A stretch of 64,000 nt of DNA. Source: Mayamaea pseudoterrestris. Its lineage: Eukaryota > Bacillariophyta > Bacillariophyceae > Sellaphorales > Sellaphoraceae. A program made the translations under genes and the position numbers. Shown one piece after another: positions 25,340-35,368 of this stretch; the stretch's first letter is position 1, and each line of letters begins with the position of its first letter. The notes under the pieces are model-generated. The model was not told the DNA's origin. It was given only the letters and a program-made list of their open reading frames with translations, and did no database searches. The stretch spans positions 62,001 to 126,000 of the forward strand of contig BROI01000022.1 of NCBI GenBank assembly GCA_027923505.1, in the 5' to 3' direction.

Positions 25340-26674
25340 ATGCGTTCGACGCTAAACGCAGTGATGCGCTTCCGGCGAGCTGCGACTCCTCGTGCTGTCA
25401 CATGCGAACGAATGCAACTGACACGACGTCCTCGGCCTGCCAACTTCGCCTTTCATTCTTCCTTGGCCACGGCGAATCATCATTTGCACGACGAGGAATA
25501 CGACGACGAAGACGACGATTACAGTAATCATGCAGTAGAAAAGTCATCTTCAAAACATTGCAGCACTTGCTCCTGCGAGACAAGTGCGCGTCTTCCGCCG
25601 ACTTCGGACACTCATGCTCTGCTCCAACAGCTGCATCCGCTACCTTCATTCACTTCCTGTCGAAATCCCCTCCACGACCCCATGGAACCACTTCCACGTC
25701 CAAATCCAGAACCAAAGTATTCAGTCCGACGTCGCATTCTTCCATCCTGTCTGACGCCTCTCAATTCACCGGCAGGCCGCCAGTTGCTAGTGCAGTCATT
25801 GACGCTGCAAACAGCAGCCAGCTACTTGACATTGACGGAACACTCCGTCAATCAGTCTGATCCAGCCTACTGCGGCGTCACGACACTGCTTATTGTATTG
25901 AATGCACTCGCCGTCGATCCTATGATACGATGGAAGGGTGGATGGCGCTACTATGGGAGCGAGGAAATGTTGCTGGCGACGTGCCAAAATTGTTTGGATG
26001 TGAGACGAATTGAGCGAGAAGGCATTACGCTGCCCGAGTTTTGTCGAATGGCCGAGTGTCAAGGGCTTGACGTGACGCTCAAGCAGCCAATCTGCACTGG
26101 TAGTGAGCTTGCTGACAATCATGTTGGAGGTTACAGAGTGGACGACTTTCGACGAGACGTGATTGAACTCCTGTCAGAAAGTGGTACTGAAATAGATTCA
26201 CAGAATGATGTTGCAATAAATAATGACAATTTAAATGGGCAACATCAGAGGTGTCCTGGCATCCTGGTCGTCTCCTTTGGACGACCTGCCTTGGAGCAAA
26301 CTGGAGACGGACATTTTTCACCCATTGCCGCATATCACGCAGAAACGGATCAAGTTTTAATACTGGATGTTGCTCGGTTCAAGTACCAGCACTACTGGGT
26401 CAAAATTGATACTTTGTATCGGGCAATGCAGTTGCTGGACAAGAAAACGGAGCAGCCTCGAGGATGGTTCAAACTACATGCGCCAATTGTCAAGAGCAAT
26501 CCAGCCAGTGAATTGCAGACATCACTCTACTACAATATTCACTCGGAAGACAGGCGGGACGTCAAGTTTGTTCCGCTTGCATGTCAGGGTCATCCTTGTC
26601 CAGTACACTCGGTAAAGGTGGACTTTTGCTCATCGGCCGCCAAGAATCGTCCACCATCGGGGTTCATCGAATAA
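25340..26674 (+). CDS. PCS: Phytochelatin synthase
   Basis: Gamma-glutamylcysteine dipeptidyl transpeptidase that builds metal-binding phytochelatins from glutathione; a papain-fold (clan CA) enzyme. 444 aa, intronless, ATG at 25340. The catalytic triad is Cys178 (QSDPAYCG), His325 (GDGHFSPIAAY) and Asp343 (LILDVARFKY). Family blocks VLNALAVDP, RWKGGWRYY and VDDFRRDV are also clear. The core aligns with plant PCS, but the enzyme has a ~120-residue N-terminal extension: an Arg-rich start (MRSTLNAVMRFRRAATPRAV) that may be an organelle transit peptide, an acidic run (DEEYDDEDDDY) and a Cys cluster (KHCSTCSCETS). The plant-type Cys-rich C-terminal domain is short, about 90 residues with CQGHPCP. 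Neighbouring ZIP genes give a metal-homeostasis context. Confidence 0.92.
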   Translation: MRSTLNAVMRFRRAATPRAVTCERMQLTRRPRPANFAFHSSLATANHHLHDEEYDDEDDDYSNHAVEKSSSKHCSTCSCETSARLPPTSDTHALLQQLHPLPSFTSCRNPLHDPMEPLPRPNPEPKYSVRRRILPSCLTPLNSPAGRQLLVQSLTLQTAASYLTLTEHSVNQSDPAYCGVTTLLIVLNALAVDPMIRWKGGWRYYGSEEMLLATCQNCLDVRRIEREGITLPEFCRMAECQGLDVTLKQPICTGSELADNHVGGYRVDDFRRDVIELLSESGTEIDSQNDVAINNDNLNGQHQRCPGILVVSFGRPALEQTGDGHFSPIAAYHAETDQVLILDVARFKYQHYWVKIDTLYRAMQLLDKKTEQPRGWFKLHAPIVKSNPASELQTSLYYNIHSEDRRDVKFVPLACQGHPCPVHSVKVDFCSSAAKNRPPSGFIE

Positions 26675-26962: not shown

Positions 26963-28252
26963 TCAAATCTCGTCAGCAACATGTAGTCCATACTTGGCAA
27001 AGACTTTGTTTGCTGCGTACTCGAGACAAGCGTCGTCTGTGGGTGTAAACTCGTCCACCGCCGTCGACTCTGATGTCAGACTCTGCTTTGCGTGCTGTAT
27101 GGCGTTGACAAGTATATCCTTACGCCACTGCTCGGACAATGTTCGTCGTTCCTCCCTCAGAGACTCGGGCGAAGCATCTTCTTTGGCAGCATCCATATAT
27201 TCGGCCAATTCAAAAGCAGTAACCGCATTATCATTCTCCCCATTGGTAGCGGTAGTAGACTCCACGGACAATGATGGCCGTCTCTGTCGTTTCTTGCTAG
27301 TGCTGTTGTCCATTTTGCTTTGTTTCATAGTTGCTGCTACTGTCTCGTTCTCCGATACTCCATGCCCCTTCAGTCGTTCCACCCACTGCTCTACTTTCAC
27401 TAGCGTATGTTTGACTTCCGCTGGTAGCAGCTCACTAGTGGCCGTTTCCAAGTCGCGTAAATCCAGAATATCCGACGAAGCAATCGTGTCGGAATCTCGT
27501 CGACGACTTTTTGACTTGGTACGCTCGCAACCCGACTGTTGCTGCTGTTGCTGGATGGCAAAGTAGTAAAAGGCAGCTGCCTCGTAGGCCGCTCCAAAAC
27601 GCTGAAGGTCGTGGAGATGTCCAGCAGTTGCGTGCGACCTGTTAGACTCGATGTACTTGTAAATGTCGTTCAAGAGTCGCTGCGCCGCTTGTACAACTCC
27701 ATGAGGATCCGGAACTTTGGAAGCAAGTCGAATCGCTAGCTCCGGGAGAATGCTGTCTCGAACAGGCGTCAATGGTTTACTAGCGTTCAATCTTGCATTT
27801 AGCTGTAACGTAGAAGCATCAGGTACTGCATGAGTTGTTGTTGCATTGGGTCCAAAGGGGTTTCGAAAACGAGACTTGGCCGAAGGGCCATCTTCAACAG
27901 CTGCTGATGCTCGCGTCAACCTCCCAGCGCCTCCTGTAACTTTCGTCGACTGCAAATAGTTTGTAAGCATTCCCTGTAGCTCCTTCAGCTTGGCTACCTT
28001 GACTCCGGCAGCTTTCGCCAAGACATTTATTGAAATTCGTTCCTTCATTTTGAGTCGGTACAAGTGCTCCAAAATAATGGCAGCGCGTGTATCTTGTCGA
28101 TCAATATTCTTTCCCAGCGACCCAGTCTTTATTCTCACGTCAATGATTCGTAGTGTTTCATTTGCTTCTCGTAAAATCTCTTCTGGAATGTCGATTGATG
28201 TTAGTTTCTTAGCAAGCTGCTCGACGGGGTTTAGCAGATTGAGCGTCTGCAT
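26963..28252 (-). CDS. ORC6: Origin recognition complex subunit 6
   Basis: Subunit of the replication-origin recognition complex that helps load MCM helicases. Intronless, 429 aa, ATG at 28252. The N-terminal TFIIB/cyclin-like fold is visible from residue 1 (LAKKLTSIDIPEEILREANE, then RIIDVRIKT) and again around residue 170 (LPELAIRLASKVPDPHGVVQ, then AQRLLNDIYKYIESN). Near the C-terminus LSEQWRKDILVNAIQHAK aligns with the conserved metazoan Orc6 C-terminal helix (EWKRKILENA), the piece that contacts ORC3. The central linker is acidic, Ser/Thr-rich and contains a Gln run and a basic cluster (SKKRQRRPS), probably an NLS with phosphorylation sites. The protein is longer than human ORC6 (252 aa), mainly through this linker. 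It shares a short divergent promoter with the kinesin-PRC1 fusion gene. Confidence 0.82.
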   Translation of the reverse strand: MQTLNLLNPVEQLAKKLTSIDIPEEILREANETLRIIDVRIKTGSLGKNIDRQDTRAAIILEHLYRLKMKERISINVLAKAAGVKVAKLKELQGMLTNYLQSTKVTGGAGRLTRASAAVEDGPSAKSRFRNPFGPNATTTHAVPDASTLQLNARLNASKPLTPVRDSILPELAIRLASKVPDPHGVVQAAQRLLNDIYKYIESNRSHATAGHLHDLQRFGAAYEAAAFYYFAIQQQQQQSGCERTKSKSRRRDSDTIASSDILDLRDLETATSELLPAEVKHTLVKVEQWVERLKGHGVSENETVAATMKQSKMDNSTSKKRQRRPSLSVESTTATNGENDNAVTAFELAEYMDAAKEDASPESLREERRTLSEQWRKDILVNAIQHAKQSLTSESTAVDEFTPTDDACLEYAANKVFAKYGLHVADEI

Positions 28253-28479: not shown

Positions 28480-31400
28480 ATGAAGCCATCACACAACAAA
28501 CCGAGATCCACCATGATGATGAGCTCGTCTACTTCGAAACAAGTAACCTCCCAGGTCCGAGTCGGAGTGCGAGTCCGTCCTTTGACGAGTCAGGAACTAG
28601 GACAAGGCGGAAAATCAGTTCTGAAGGTTATTCCTCCCGAGATTCGCCTCGGCGAACGACGCTTCACCTACGATGCCGTCTTTGACGAGCAAGTCGATCA
28701 GAATGAACTTTATTCGCAAGTCTCCACGCCACTGCTGACTAGCTTTTTGGAAGGCTATAATGCGACGGTGAGTGTCTGGTAGTAAATATTAGTACATTTT
28801 GCTGTTAATGTGGACTTCGGATTGCGATTCAATTCTATGCTCACCGAAACTCGACAATATTTTCCTCTCAGATCATGGCATACGGACAAACTGGCAGCGG
28901 AAAAGTACGTCACAAATGACAATGAATTTGTCGTGTATCTGCTATGCTAGTTTGTCCTCATCCTCGTCTTTATTGCAGACTTTTACCATGGGAAGCGAGG
29001 CGCATACGGAACTCGAGCTTTCGGAGAATACTGGCCTCATTCCTCGCTTTATGAACGACTTGTTCCACAATTTAGAGAAGCAGCAAAGCAGTCATGGATC
29101 ATCTTTGTCGCACTTCAATCTGCAAGCGTCCTTTCTTGAGGTATACGGCGAAGACGTTCATGACCTTTTGGATCCATCTCGAACCTCCCTTCCGCTGCGC
29201 GAGGACGCCAATGGCGGCGTCATTTGCGCAGGCTTGACGCATCGGTCCGTCGCGACTGCCACGCAGGCTCTCACAGTTTTACACGAGGGAACCATGAATC
29301 GAACTACCGCCGCGACGCTCATGAACTTGACGAGTAGTCGGTCGCACGCCATTTTCACTGTGTATCTGACGCAGACGCACTCTACGGATGGAGTTGACGT
29401 TGTCACGACGAGTCGTTTCACCTTTGTCGACCTGGCTGGCAGCGAGAGGATGAAGAAGACTGGCGCAGAAGGCGAGCGAGCGCGAGAGGGAATCAAGATT
29501 AATGAAGGGCTGCTCGCGCTTGGAAACGTTATCAACGCATTGGCCGACGAGGAACGCATCGCAACTGGCAAGACTGTCCATGTACCCTATCGTCAGTCCA
29601 AGCTCACTCGGCTTTTACAAGACGCGCTTGGTGGAAACAGCCAGACTCTATTCTTGGCTTGTGTCTCGCCATCAGATACGAATGCGAATGAAACTTTGTC
29701 GACCATGCATTATGCAAATCGTGCTCGCAACATTAAGAATGCTCCAACGCGCAACGTTGATGGCAACGTAATGGAAATGCAGCGCCTACAGTCGTTGACG
29801 CAGATTCTACAAACAGAACTCGTCAAGCACAAGTTCGGAGGGGACGCGGAGGAATCCAAGATTGGAGAGTGTGATGCAGGCCTTTGGATGCGCCAGGATG
29901 TTTCCGAATATCTTGATCTGCTTCAAGCCGCAGCGATTGAGAAACATGAACTCCAAGGTCCACATCATTCTCGAAATGCATCTTTGACATTGCCAGCTCC
30001 CAAGTCTCGTGCGCTTTCAATCAGTCCTACGGAGCACCGCATGGAATTATACAATCTCAATGAATCAATTCGACTTGACGGAGATCCAAACAAATCCATC
30101 ATGGAGCACTTCAATCCGCTTGCAGAGGTTAATCCAGACGAAGACATGGCTATTTTGGATCAGCTACTAGAGCTTCAGCAGCGTGATAGTGAATTTCAAA
30201 AGGCGCAGGAGGCAGACGATGACGAACTGAAGCAAGTTGAAGGCGAAATTGTTCAGCAGCAAAGCCTGCTTCTGCAGCTTCGAGAAAGTTTAAAAGTGTA
30301 TCACGACATGAAGGATAAATATGAGGTTTTGATGGCGGAGGTTCGGCACCTTGAGGTGGAAAAGACGGAGCTGGTCGAGCAGCTAGACAAGGCTCATACT
30401 GATCCGACGAAAGGTTGCTCGAAAGCTATCAAACGAGAGTTGGAAAAGGTTGAGCAGGCACTAGCTCGCGCGCGTAACGAAAGCCGAAAGCATCGAGAAT
30501 TGTACCGCAAGGCAGAACAGGAAGCCAAGAAATCTGCTGTCCTGCAGCGTAAGATTACGGAACTCAAGACGGGCCGTGCGAAACTTATCAAAAAGCAGCA
30601 AGAGACAGCAGCACGACACAGGGATTATACTGAAGCTCGCACCAGAGAGATTCTGGCGTTAAAACGGAAGGATAGAAGCAATGAACAACGCTTATCCAAA
30701 ATGCAAAAGGAAATTCAAATGCACAAGAAGAATCTAGATAAGCGCCAGGACTACTGCACAAAATTAAAAGACAAACTCGACCAGACGGAATCGCATCTCA
30801 TGAAGCTCCTTGCGATGCGCAATCAAGAATTGCGGGATCGTACAAGTGTTGTAGCGATGTCACGTCGACCCTCTTCAGCCTTGGCTCGCAAGTCAAGCTT
30901 TCCGGTCCCTGCGAACAAGGTTACCTTTGCACCTCGTTCGGATGCAATTGATTCAATCAACTTTATTCTCGACCAAGCTGTTGTCGAAAAGATAATGATT
31001 TTGGAAGCTGATCAGAGGTACGAAGAATGCGTTACCGAATACAGTGAAGCGATGCGAAACATGGTGGAAGCTGTCAAGGCTTTGGAACACGCACGCGAGC
31101 TCGCGAAAAATGTCGATAATGAGATAGACTTAGACGAGAGCGAACTAATTCAGGTTGTTGAGGAGTCTGAATTGAAGGTGGAGCTACTTAGTGAAGAGCT
31201 TGAGTCTCTTCGTCGTCAGCTTTCGGAAACGGACGGGAATGAAGGCAAGGAAGCGCTTGCTGAAAAGTTAATAAAAGACAAGGACGCTCCACTACTCCGA
31301 ACTGTTCTACTCGACACGCTGGAGAAACTGATTGAGACTAAGGTATGCCACTTAATGCTTCGTGCGGTATTATTTTATGTTTGTTAACTCAATTTGCCCT

Positions 31401-33825
31401 TTACCATTTGGTACACCTTCAGATTCTCCACAACCGCCTAGACAAGGTTCTACAGCGGAAGGCATCCGCACTGCATGGCCTTGAGAACGAGGTCGAGCTT
31501 CTCAACGACAAGATTGAATCTTTGACGAGGACTAACAAGCTGCGACAAGTTGTTGATTCTTCTGACGTCGGCAGCGTTGAAACGATCCATCGGCTTGCTT
31601 CCGAAAACCGATCACAAAAAATGCAGTTGCAACATACACAATCTGATCTAACAAAGCTCAATGAGATGCTATCTGAAGCAAGAAATGACAACCGCCTTCT
31701 CGCGACAAAGACCCGCGAGGCCGAAGAAAAAGTCGCTCTCGTTCTGACAGCGTCGAACGTTTCTGAGGCTATCGAACCCTCCAAGGCAACACTCGACAAT
31801 ATACACCGCATTTGGAGGCAGCTTGGTAGACCGTTGGAAGAGTTGGATGAGATCAGGTTCGAAATTGAGAACTGTCTTGACCATACATGTACCAGGCTGC
31901 TCCGAGAGGCACAGGATTTGAAAGAGACCACGCTTGTCGAACTTGAAAGCCTTGAACATGAAATTCGTCGCATGCACATCAGTCTCGGTCGCATGGAAGA
32001 AGACAGCATTCGCGGAGATGGACCGTTAGTTGTGCAACTTGACAGGCTGCGTCGGACACACGCAGAAATAGAAGTTGTATACAGAGAAACAGCTACTCGG
32101 CGCGAGGCTTTAAAGCAGCAAGCGATGAGTCTTGTCACACTGCTTGGACTTGCTGGTGACACGATTCCTGTCGAGCTTCGATCCTTATTGGCTCCAGAGA
32201 CTGAAGTATTGGACCTACGAGATGACTTGATTGCACAATATGAGCTCCAAGTATCAGAGCTACGCGTTAGAAAATCGCAGATGCTTGTTACTAATGCGGA
32301 AGTGCTGAAGAATGCTTATCAACTTGTTTCCGACATGAATCTTGCAGAGCATCAAGTTTTTCCACTGGTACTGGCAGATATCAAACGGAGATGCGTAGAC
32401 CTGCCGGAATGGTGGGACGAGGCGATTGCCGAGATTATTGTCAGAGCAGTCTCGAATGCTGGTGGTGTCGTTCGAGCTACTCAATCCTTTCGAGAGCATC
32501 TTTTAGTTGTTTATGCTTCTTTGGAAAGTCTTTCGAGAAGCCGACGCATTTTATCCGACAAGCTCAAGGAACTTGTGGAAAAGGCGCAAAGAATTCTTCT
32601 TGAAACCGTCGATGGCGAGGTAGATGCAATTGAGGCGTATGCAAGCTTCCACGATGCCCTCTTTCGTCTTCCGCCACTTTCAAAGGAACGCATGAATGCT
32701 TGCATTGCCGAAATTGACGCGCTTCTCACTTGCGTCGACGACATGACCCAGAGTGAGATAGAAGCGCTGGTGGTGGTGCATGAGGCTTTGAATGTGGCTT
32801 CGAATGATCGTAGTATGTTCTGGAGCGAAGTCGAAGTTGCCACTAGCGCAGTTGACGCTAAGAATGTTCGACCATTTAATGAGGTGGTGCAAGATGTTTC
32901 TGTCGATGCCGAAGACTGGGTTCTGCAAATGGTCGCGGACGGAACCAAGAATTATCGCCAGTTGGAGAGTCGTCTCGTCAAGCTACAGATGATACACTCC
33001 GAGGTGGAAAGACTGCGTTCGCGCCAAGATACAAAAAGCAAGATTATCACTCTCGACTCGGAAGTTCGTACGTTGAGCACAAAGATTTCTGAATTTGAAG
33101 ATACGAAATGCAACAAGCAACGGCTTTTGACGAAGAAGTCGGGAAGCGTCAATTTACTAAAAGAGGAGCGCTTCCGGAAACAAATGCAGCAGAAGTTTGC
33201 TTCTAAACTTGAAAAACTCGCCCTGCTGCTACAGAGTTGGCGAGAAGGCAATAAGGAAGATTTCGACTCGAACCTGTTGAGCGATGAAGTACGAATGCTT
33301 CTTGACAATGGTGGCGACAACATGGTCGAGTGGGTTGAGAAGCGAACCGAATTTATGCACCTGAGGACCACGCAATCGACCAAGAAACGTCGGACCGATA
33401 CATCACAAGACATTGACTCGCTAAGCACGAGCAAGGTTGCTATGCATCGCCTTGCCGAACCCGCAAATGCAACCGTAACATTAGATGCTGCCAGGAAAAA
33501 GTCTGTTGCGCCAAGTCAGCCAGCAGAAAGGCGACCAGCATTTCCCAAACCAGCCTCCTCCTTATCAACATCGCGGAAGCGAAAGGGCGATGAGCTTCCT
33601 CCGTCTAAGCCAGCACGTCAAACGCGATCGTCTCGGAGTCAGTCCACGTCTCGCATGCCCCGTTCACCGGCACACGATTCGAGAAAGAGTGGAGGCGAAT
33701 TAGATGCTGCCAAGGAGAACAACGTCAAGCCTGCAGCGGCGAACAAGAAGCGCTTGACACTACCACCATTTGGTCATGTGTTGGAGTCGGCCAGTACGCC
33801 TCGAAACGCTGACAAGGAAAATTGA
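28480..33825 (+). CDS. Kinesin-4 motor fused to a PRC1/MAP65 microtubule bundler
   Basis: About 1695 aa in four exons: 28480-28767, 28872-28904 (33 nt), 28979-31342 and 31423-33825, all phase 0. An ATG at 28513 (CCACCATG) is an alternative start. Motor, residues ~25-360: P-loop GQTGSGKT at 101-108, switch I NLTSSRSH at 223-230, switch II DLAGSE at 258-263, plus HVPYRQSKLTRLLQDALGG and YANRARNIKN, diagnostic of kinesin-4 (KIF4/KIF21). Long coiled coils follow to ~1015. From 1019 the chain reads as PRC1/MAP65/Ase1: LDNIHRIWRQLG (PRC1 start), a rod, then the spectrin-fold hallmark VNLLKEERFRKQ at ~1471 with LLLQSW, and a basic Ser/Arg tail with SP/TP sites and KEN boxes at 33712-33720 and 33814-33822. 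The KIF4 Cys-rich tail is absent. Likely role: spindle midzone or phragmoplast overlaps. The link to PRC1 depends on splicing the 80-bp intron 31343-31422; retention ends the protein 15 codons later. Confidence 0.9.
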
Positions 33826-34152: not shown

Positions 34153-34935
34153 TTAGCTACTCTTGGTCTTGTCCAGGACATCCATGATTGCCTTGGGAAC
34201 AAACTTGTCTGGAACTTGCGCCTTGTATGATGAGTACTCTTGACCATACATTTGGGACAGCTCGTACTCTTCAAGGTTGGACTTAGACTGAAAAATCGCA
34301 TACAGCACCGCCGTCAAGACGAGCCTTGGCACACTATCTGTCACAACAGCCAATCCAGCGCACGCAGCCAGCAGGCCAGCGTACATTGGATGACGACACT
34401 GCGCAAAGAGTCCATCCGTGATTAATCCTTGACCCGATGGCGGCTTGGGCCAGGGCGAAAGAGCCGAACCCATGTCCATGACGCTCAAAAGAATTGCTGC
34501 TGCTCCAATCAGCAACAGTCCAGGTCCAAGAAGAAAAAAGAGGGCATTTCCAATGAATGGAACGCCTCCTCCGAGTATACCCAAGAGGCAAACAAGCTGC
34601 GCAATGAACCAAAGTTCGCCGCGCTGGCCAACCTCGCCCTGCATGACGTTTTCCTTGACGCCCGAGACGCTATCCGAAAGACGATCCCAATCCAATTCGA
34701 CGTTTTGAATCTTGTCAATCAAGCCTTGAATATCAAAGTCAATGCTACTCTTGTTATTGTTGATGCGAGTCTCCTTTTCTTTGTCCACCAAGGCGTAGAG
34801 TGGTGTCGTTGAGCGAGAATGAGGAATCGGTTGAACAAACGGCGAAGAGCTAGTCGTTACACGCGAGTAATGAGGAGATACATGGAAAGCGCTGCTTGCA
34901 GTGAGCAAGGAGAGCAACACGGCGACGCGAATCAT
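34153..34935 (-). CDS. Plastid-targeted ICMT/PEMT-like membrane methyltransferase
   Basis: Intronless, 260 aa from the Met at 34935 (a Met at 34944 adds three residues). The leader MIRVAVLLSLLTASSAFHVS is a signal peptide ending in ASSAF, the bipartite plastid-targeting motif of diatoms, so the protein should reach the plastid. After a Ser/Thr-rich transit region it has about four hydrophobic segments (WFIAQLVCLLGILGGGVPFI, ALFFLLGPGLLLIGAAAIL, then two near AGLLAACAGLAVV and VLTAVLYAIF). The isoprenylcysteine carboxyl methyltransferase / phospholipid methyltransferase block is clear: GLITDGLFAQCRHPMYAG, then SNLEEYELSQMYGQEYSSYK, which carry the SAM-binding RHPxY and the Glu-Glu/Tyr-x-x-Tyr pattern. 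The substrate may be a lipid or prenylated molecule of the plastid; it is not decidable here. Confidence 0.82.
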   Translation of the reverse strand: MIRVAVLLSLLTASSAFHVSPHYSRVTTSSSPFVQPIPHSRSTTPLYALVDKEKETRINNNKSSIDFDIQGLIDKIQNVELDWDRLSDSVSGVKENVMQGEVGQRGELWFIAQLVCLLGILGGGVPFIGNALFFLLGPGLLLIGAAAILLSVMDMGSALSPWPKPPSGQGLITDGLFAQCRHPMYAGLLAACAGLAVVTDSVPRLVLTAVLYAIFQSKSNLEEYELSQMYGQEYSSYKAQVPDKFVPKAIMDVLDKTKSS

Positions 34936-35368
34936 GATGTACATCAGTATGGTAGTGGGAAGATGGGAAGACTATAGGAGCAACGGATAATGGATGAGAG
35001 CTTTTCGATTCGAATCCGATCTTTCGCGTGTCAAGTTGATGCCATGGATCGCGATCTTTTGGTCGTGGTGCGACAGTCTGACTGCGTGAGCACTATTCGT
35101 GATACTTCTTGCTTCAAATGTTGGAGATTATATTGGCAGAAGCGCTCGTCATTGTATCTACAATAGGAGTGAACGATTAACTGTGAGAGACAGCGGAACG
35201 ACGCAGCTCGCTGCACCAGTGATAGCTATCTGGGCATCCTACGGTAGTGTATTTTCTACAGGCTTCAAATGCTTTTCTGAATGCCACAAGAAGCGGAGTC
35301 GAGAAGCAATGACAGAAAACGGAGACAGGTTTTATTACATCAATCCTATACCTATCTTAATCAAACAT
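34936..35368. other. Intergenic region, no gene seen
   Basis: About 430 bp between the methyltransferase start and the stop of the next gene on the same strand. GATTCGAATCC near 35008 resembles a tRNA B box, but no A box or cloverleaf surrounds it. Confidence 0.4.

Follow-up and report, generated by a model that had tools for sequence, protein, structure and literature searches.

In animal cells the kinesin-4 motor KIF4A and the microtubule cross-linker PRC1 are encoded by two genes and dock through two aromatic motifs, the C-terminal tail of the kinesin contacting the N-terminal region of PRC1 (PMC10620760). Indeed, residues 1133-1232 of KIF4A co-elute with residues 1-168 of PRC1, which cover its dimerisation and rod region, the affinity of docking is micromolar, and E58 is the motor-docking residue of human PRC1 (PMC10620760). 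PRC1 and kinesin-4 are described as the minimal pair that makes midzone bundles in vitro, their ratio setting the overlap length (PMC6616649), and KIF4A and PRC1 also gather at plus ends (PMC6200392). Here we analyse a gene of the diatom Mayamaea pseudoterrestris (Bacillariophyceae) that encodes the same two modules in a single covalent protein, in which the Cys-rich KIF4 tail is missing. It lies on contig C22 of a genome of 30.6 Mb and 41 contigs, at positions 28480-33825 (+) of a 64,000-nucleotide stretch (BROI01000022.1, 62,001-126,000), hereafter the window, to which all coordinates without a contig name refer. The two partners are separate in animal cell division and joined in diatoms, which opens the pair to study as one natural machine.

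Historically, diatom spindles have served as a model of how overlapping microtubules slide. According to passages of a review (PMC5192431), hundreds of microtubules overlap in an almost paracrystalline array in the diatom central spindle, a kinesin is implicated by antibody inhibition, and elongation is ascribed to one of the sliding kinesins, which these passages do not name. They also speculate that Ase1p may belong to a kinesin-anchoring midzone matrix, and cite the diatom matrix kinesin DSK1, which the fusion resembles by description. The fusion gene offers a specific candidate, a motor that would come with an Ase1-type cross-linker attached. A preliminary description of the window, made from the sequence alone, knew of no described kinesin-4/PRC1 fusion, and none is named in the titles and abstract openings of the open-licence PMC papers listed by searches for it. 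A 2006 survey of the kinesins of photosynthetic eukaryotes, including Thalassiosira pseudonana, reported that most of its diatom kinesins were short, possibly owing to poor gene models (PMC1434745), which may be one reason why the fusion went unnoticed.

Organisation of the fusion gene

Enumeration of GT..AG splice combinations gave a four-exon gene with a single open frame of 1695 amino acids (aa), from the start ATG at 28480 to the stop codon at 33823-33825. Its exons, all on the + strand, are: (i) exon 1 (28480-28767), encoding residues 1-96 and the beginning of the kinesin motor, (ii) exon 2 (28872-28904), encoding residues 97-107 (IMAYGQTGSGK) and thereby most of the P-loop, (iii) exon 3 (28979-31342), encoding residues 108-895, namely the remaining motor and the kinesin-4 stalk, and (iv) exon 4 (31423-33825), encoding residues 896-1695 and the stop, namely a linker, the PRC1/MAP65 module and a basic tail. 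The three introns (28768-28871, 28905-28978 and 31343-31422; 104, 74 and 80 bases) are all of the GT..AG type; an alternative donor at 28774 in the first one would add two residues. The kinesin/PRC1 junction falls between residues 895 and 896, at the third intron. MPSEU_000906400, the model deposited for this gene (1256 aa), has the same junction splice and identical residues there, almost the whole motor being missing from it.

Relatives were collected in three protein searches, with about 8000 candidates scored in each, the last of which gave the best 120 of 8000. The 136 proteins fetched each represent one 90%-identity cluster, and the taxa and counts given below are those among the matches listed. 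According to the alignment, 77 carry both the motor and the PRC1 part (hereafter full relatives), 43 are short models with a motor, from which the PRC1 part is wholly or mostly missing, and 16 lack most of the motor.

Kinesin-4 part

The preliminary description had proposed that kinesin-4 and PRC1/MAP65 are joined in one polypeptide, and the spliced frame, sequence profiles and a predicted structure agree with it. Pfam places the Kinesin domain at residues 54-359 (E 7.8e-104) and KIF21A_4th, the kinesin-4 stalk domain, at residues 505-672 (30170-30673, +; E 2.8e-12, 47.1 bits for a cut-off of 33.1), as expected from the kinesin-4 assignment first made for this part. The motor piece searched against the PDB has KIF4 as its top match (3.6e-65). 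The P-loop and switch segments examined are mostly 90-100% identical across the 77 full relatives, and KIF21A_4th is present in all 29 relatives scanned with Pfam. By these sequence comparisons the N-terminal motor and stalk are of the kinesin-4 type, and the motor would be expected to move towards plus ends and to limit growth there. Like other members of the kinesin-4 family (KIF4, KIF21, KIF7, plant FRA1), the protein thus has a motor, closest to that of KIF4, and a KIF21A_4th stalk; unlike them, it has a PRC1 module in place of the C-terminal region. The absence of the KIF4 Cys-rich tail, remarked on earlier, stands, there being no 3-Cys cluster anywhere in the M. pseudoterrestris fusion protein and a 4-Cys cluster in just one of the 77 full relatives. 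Because this tail is missing, the fusion is not classed as a KIF4 chromokinesin.

PRC1/MAP65 part

The PRC1/MAP65 fold occupies residues 1015-1542 (31780-33363, +) and comprises an N-terminal part, a rod and a spectrin-type domain (residues 1425-1543; 33010-33366, +) which carries NLLKEER and is the microtubule-binding domain in PRC1. Single-sequence searches of this part were weak or empty. The Pfam scan of the whole 1695-aa protein did not have MAP65_ASE1 among its matches; in the scan of the C-terminal 681 aa alone, MAP65_ASE1 appeared with an E-value of 6.6e-6 and 25.6 bits, under the cut-off of 26.9; the fusion locus scored 22.8 bits in a whole-genome search with MAP65_ASE1 (PF03999); and phmmer gave zero matches for the same 681 aa against the PDB. 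Profiles and a predicted structure were used for this reason. Among the relatives, MAP65_ASE1 was found at E<=0.01 in 15 of the 29 fusion proteins scanned, and relative P0002 reached 36.2 bits.

A profile of the PRC1 part, built from 93 sequences, scored 37.0 bits on the diatom PRC1 and 31.2 bits on human PRC1, compared with at most 8.3 bits on 46 controls (39 open frames of the same genome, five shuffles and two reversals). With hhalign, this profile aligned with the two PRC1s over 413 columns (P 3.9e-9) and with the diatom PRC1 alone over 144 columns (P 1.7e-6). The stalk profile, used as a negative control, scored -9.8 bits on PRC1. A profile of the whole length searched against the PDB gave kinesin motors only in the best 60 of 183 rows and is uninformative about PRC1. 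In Foldseek searches with the predicted structure, four PRC1 chains were the sole PDB matches at E<=0.001; PRC1 ranked first for the model in both Foldseek and VIA, with the chain order kept over model residues 1-528. That the C-terminal part is merely a generic helical or spectrin-like tail, with no relationship to PRC1, is very improbable in view of the specificity of the profile against its controls and of the PRC1 chains being alone at that Foldseek threshold. As judged from the predicted model, the C-terminal module is a relative of PRC1/MAP65/Ase1, with the fold order N-terminal helical part, rod and spectrin domain. It shares with PRC1/Ase1/MAP65 proteins (PF03999) the fold, the domain order, a spectrin-type end with an NLLKEE-like motif and a basic tail, and differs from them in being attached to a motor, in a middle block that aligns poorly and in scoring under the Pfam cut-off in M. 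pseudoterrestris.

The N-terminal motif of the module is retained, W1026 being kept in 67 of 93 sequences and G1030 in 92 of 93, which is compatible with a homodimer formed through the N-terminus and with antiparallel bundling. An alternative is that the module has ceased to bundle and instead raises the processivity of the motor, acting as an anchor or arm on the microtubule. The N-terminal segment is poorly conserved, as this alternative would have it, and the position equivalent to E58 is acidic in none of 92 sequences; the W and G retention and a predicted fold that spans the length of PRC1 argue the other way, and we regard an anchor without bundling as improbable. The stand-alone PRC1 of M. 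pseudoterrestris has E-E at the E58 position, by eye. Loss of this acid was considered as a hallmark of the fusion and dropped: plant MAP65 may likewise be without an equivalent acid, so the state could be ancestral.

The segments of the protein differ in conservation. Identity to the M. pseudoterrestris protein is 33-51% over residues 361-914, which include the stalk, and 35-58% over residues 1201-1480 (32338-33177). In the fast-evolving linker (residues 896-1014; 31423-31779, +) it is 18-33% over residues 915-1014 (rows P0002-P0049). The block 1201-1480 shows PxWW, FRLPPLSKE and QSEIEALTVVWEAL patterns.

One gene or two

The junction intron (31343-31422, +; 80 bases, phase 0, GTATGC..TTCAG) contains an in-frame stop (TAA, 31385-31387). 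The gene model could therefore have misjoined two adjacent genes, a kinesin-4 ending at this TAA and a separate PRC1-like gene, since the kinesin frame does meet a stop inside the intron and, in the 43 short models among the 136 fetched proteins, the PRC1 part is entirely or largely missing. The junctions of the relatives, read from protein models, speak against it. Indeed, 33 of the 43 short models switch at the junction to residues resembling a translated splice donor (V then R, S, G, N, C or similar; another pattern gave 30) and soon end; the donor of M. pseudoterrestris itself, GTATGC, would read VC. Other short models end elsewhere, P0098 and P0100 keeping part of the PRC1 module and P0131 and P0135 stopping before the junction. 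Among the 77 full relatives, classed by pattern, 59 run straight through the junction, six are donor-like, as from an intron that was read through, and 12 are neither, several of these being plainly continuous by eye. Three full relatives (P0020, P0022 and P0037) bear transcriptome labels, and the deposited M. pseudoterrestris model is spliced at the same junction.

Furthermore, on a FastTree phylogeny of 122 rows, the labels short and full require 24 changes, at least 21 of them forced by strong branches, as expected if an unspliced intron had truncated the models. The idea that all short models stem from a motor-only paralogue was rejected, short and full models being interleaved on the tree. 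From this interleaving and the donor-like ends, the phase-0 junction intron appears to be old and often present among relatives, and most short models are probably truncations at the unspliced intron. Two misjoined genes are accordingly an extremely improbable account of the locus.

Distribution of the fusion

A survey of ochrophyte genomes for the same fusion had been suggested, and the 77 full relatives come, among the named sources, from diatoms, from the closely related bolidophytes and from one dinoflagellate. In brief, the named diatom sources are Seminavis, Fistulifera, Nitzschia, Skeletonema, Thalassiosira, Stephanodiscus, Chaetoceros, Epithemia and Extubocellulus, so that centric and pennate diatoms are both represented; full fusions also come from two Triparma species (Bolidophyceae) and from the dinoflagellate Kryptoperidinium foliaceum. 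Neither Phaeodactylum tricornutum nor Thalassiosira pseudonana figures among the named matches listed. Retention in diatoms and bolidophytes makes the fusion a natural test of how important ratio and docking are. The K. foliaceum transcript (P0022) clusters with Nitzschia on the tree. This dinoflagellate harbours a diatom endosymbiont, from which P0022 would be expected, and given its grouping with Nitzschia the transcript probably does come from there; the endosymbiont nucleus would then still express the fusion motor. A scan of viral contigs gave no relative of the fusion.

Other PRC1 and kinesin-4 genes in the genome

MAP65_ASE1 was found at two places of the M. pseudoterrestris genome, the fusion gene and a canonical stand-alone PRC1 on contig C38 (154759-156168; E 4.5e-63, 216 bits). 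The loss of stand-alone PRC1, which had been suggested as something to look for, is not seen in this genome. A second kinesin-4, on C22 about 421 kb from the fusion gene, has a motor at 518262-519275 and a stalk domain at 516902-517270, here treated as one gene; its KIF21A_4th is above the cut-off, and its motor, too, matches KIF4 best in the PDB. A third KIF21A_4th place, on C16, is under the cut-off and lies within a long coiled-coil frame. With a PRC1 and another kinesin-4 encoded separately, the fusion is an addition rather than a replacement.

Putative function

In the fusion, the C-terminus of the kinesin is joined to the N-terminus of PRC1, so that the contact published for the KIF4A tail and PRC1 1-168 is made permanent. 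The preliminary description had concluded that motor and bundler would be fixed at 1:1 and that recruitment control would be removed; this is the case for each molecule and not for the cell, because of the stand-alone PRC1 and the second kinesin-4. It had also proposed a built-in overlap ruler, a function that the fusion could have.

We give a probability of roughly 0.6 to the reading, based on sequence and model, that the covalent kinesin-4-PRC1 protein acts as a self-recruiting cross-linker and regulator of overlap length at the diatom spindle midzone. The PRC1 module would dimerise and cross-link antiparallel microtubules, and the motor pair would reach the overlaps without a docking step, most likely in the midzone of the central spindle. 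The dimer would be T-shaped, its motors branching off about halfway along the PRC1 rod, at the docking place of the KIF4A tail in animals, and they would always be present where the rod cross-links. The motors would walk to the plus ends and there restrain growth and sliding. Overlap length would be set by how much stand-alone PRC1 there is relative to the fusion, the former diluting the latter. After mitosis, the fusion could be removed by the anaphase-promoting complex/cyclosome (APC/C) through its C-terminal KEN.

Two results weigh against this reading. Firstly, the block 1201-1480 is the best-conserved non-motor segment compared save the stalk, yet fits PRC1 least. Secondly, some relatives in the Thalassiosirales group do not have the PRC1 part: P0107, P0109, P0132, P0133 and P0136 run past the junction into the linker, which is retained in these short proteins, and have no PRC1 match; yet P0132 and P0136 end near a PFG motif. 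These five may represent a paralogue, or a variant in which the fusion came first and the PRC1 part was lost later.

The tail (residues 1591-1695; 33508-33822, +) carries PFGHVL and a terminal KEN. In M. pseudoterrestris these last 105 residues are basic (22 K/R and 10 D/E), and the tail is net positive in all 77 full relatives. A PF[GQAES] motif is present in 88 of 93 sequences, and KEN occurs within the final 80 residues in 64 of 93, for 2.8 expected from shuffles, an excess that does not translate into a probability as the sequences are related. A KEN box can act as an APC/C signal, and its C-terminal position here suggests cell-cycle-dependent destruction. The stand-alone PRC1 on C38 (L001) also has a QPFGHL...KEN stretch near its C-terminus; this arrangement, common to both proteins, may reflect shared origin or shared cell-cycle control.

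The frequent KEN also bears on whether a real fusion could have a non-mitotic role, be it on microtubules of interphase or of the cortex, or at the microtubule centre that takes part in cell-wall formation. Some land-plant kinesin-4 and MAP65 proteins do act outside mitosis on such arrays. In M. pseudoterrestris, the separate PRC1 and the second kinesin-4 could handle mitosis, and the conserved block 1201-1480 is not typical of PRC1. Cell-cycle-dependent destruction, as suggested by the KEN, and the place of PRC1 and kinesin-4 as the known minimal midzone pair (PMC6616649) point instead to the spindle, and a non-mitotic role seems rather unlikely. A wider scenario extends the midzone reading: the ancestor of diatoms and bolidophytes would have fused kinesin-4 to PRC1, and the product would be a self-recruiting, kinesin-bearing element in the midzone matrix of the diatom central spindle. 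Separate PRC1 would dilute it and thereby set the length of the near-crystalline overlap. We put this forward tentatively, at somewhat below even odds.

Neighbouring genes

An open reading frame at 26963-28252 (-) diverges from the fusion gene and starts 228 bases from its ATG. A suspected likeness to ORC6 was not retained, Pfam and PDB searches giving no support for it. The other neighbours are a gene with a phytochelatin synthase domain (25340-26674, +; 2.1e-66) and a phospholipid methyltransferase-like gene (34153-34944, -; 2.5e-10).

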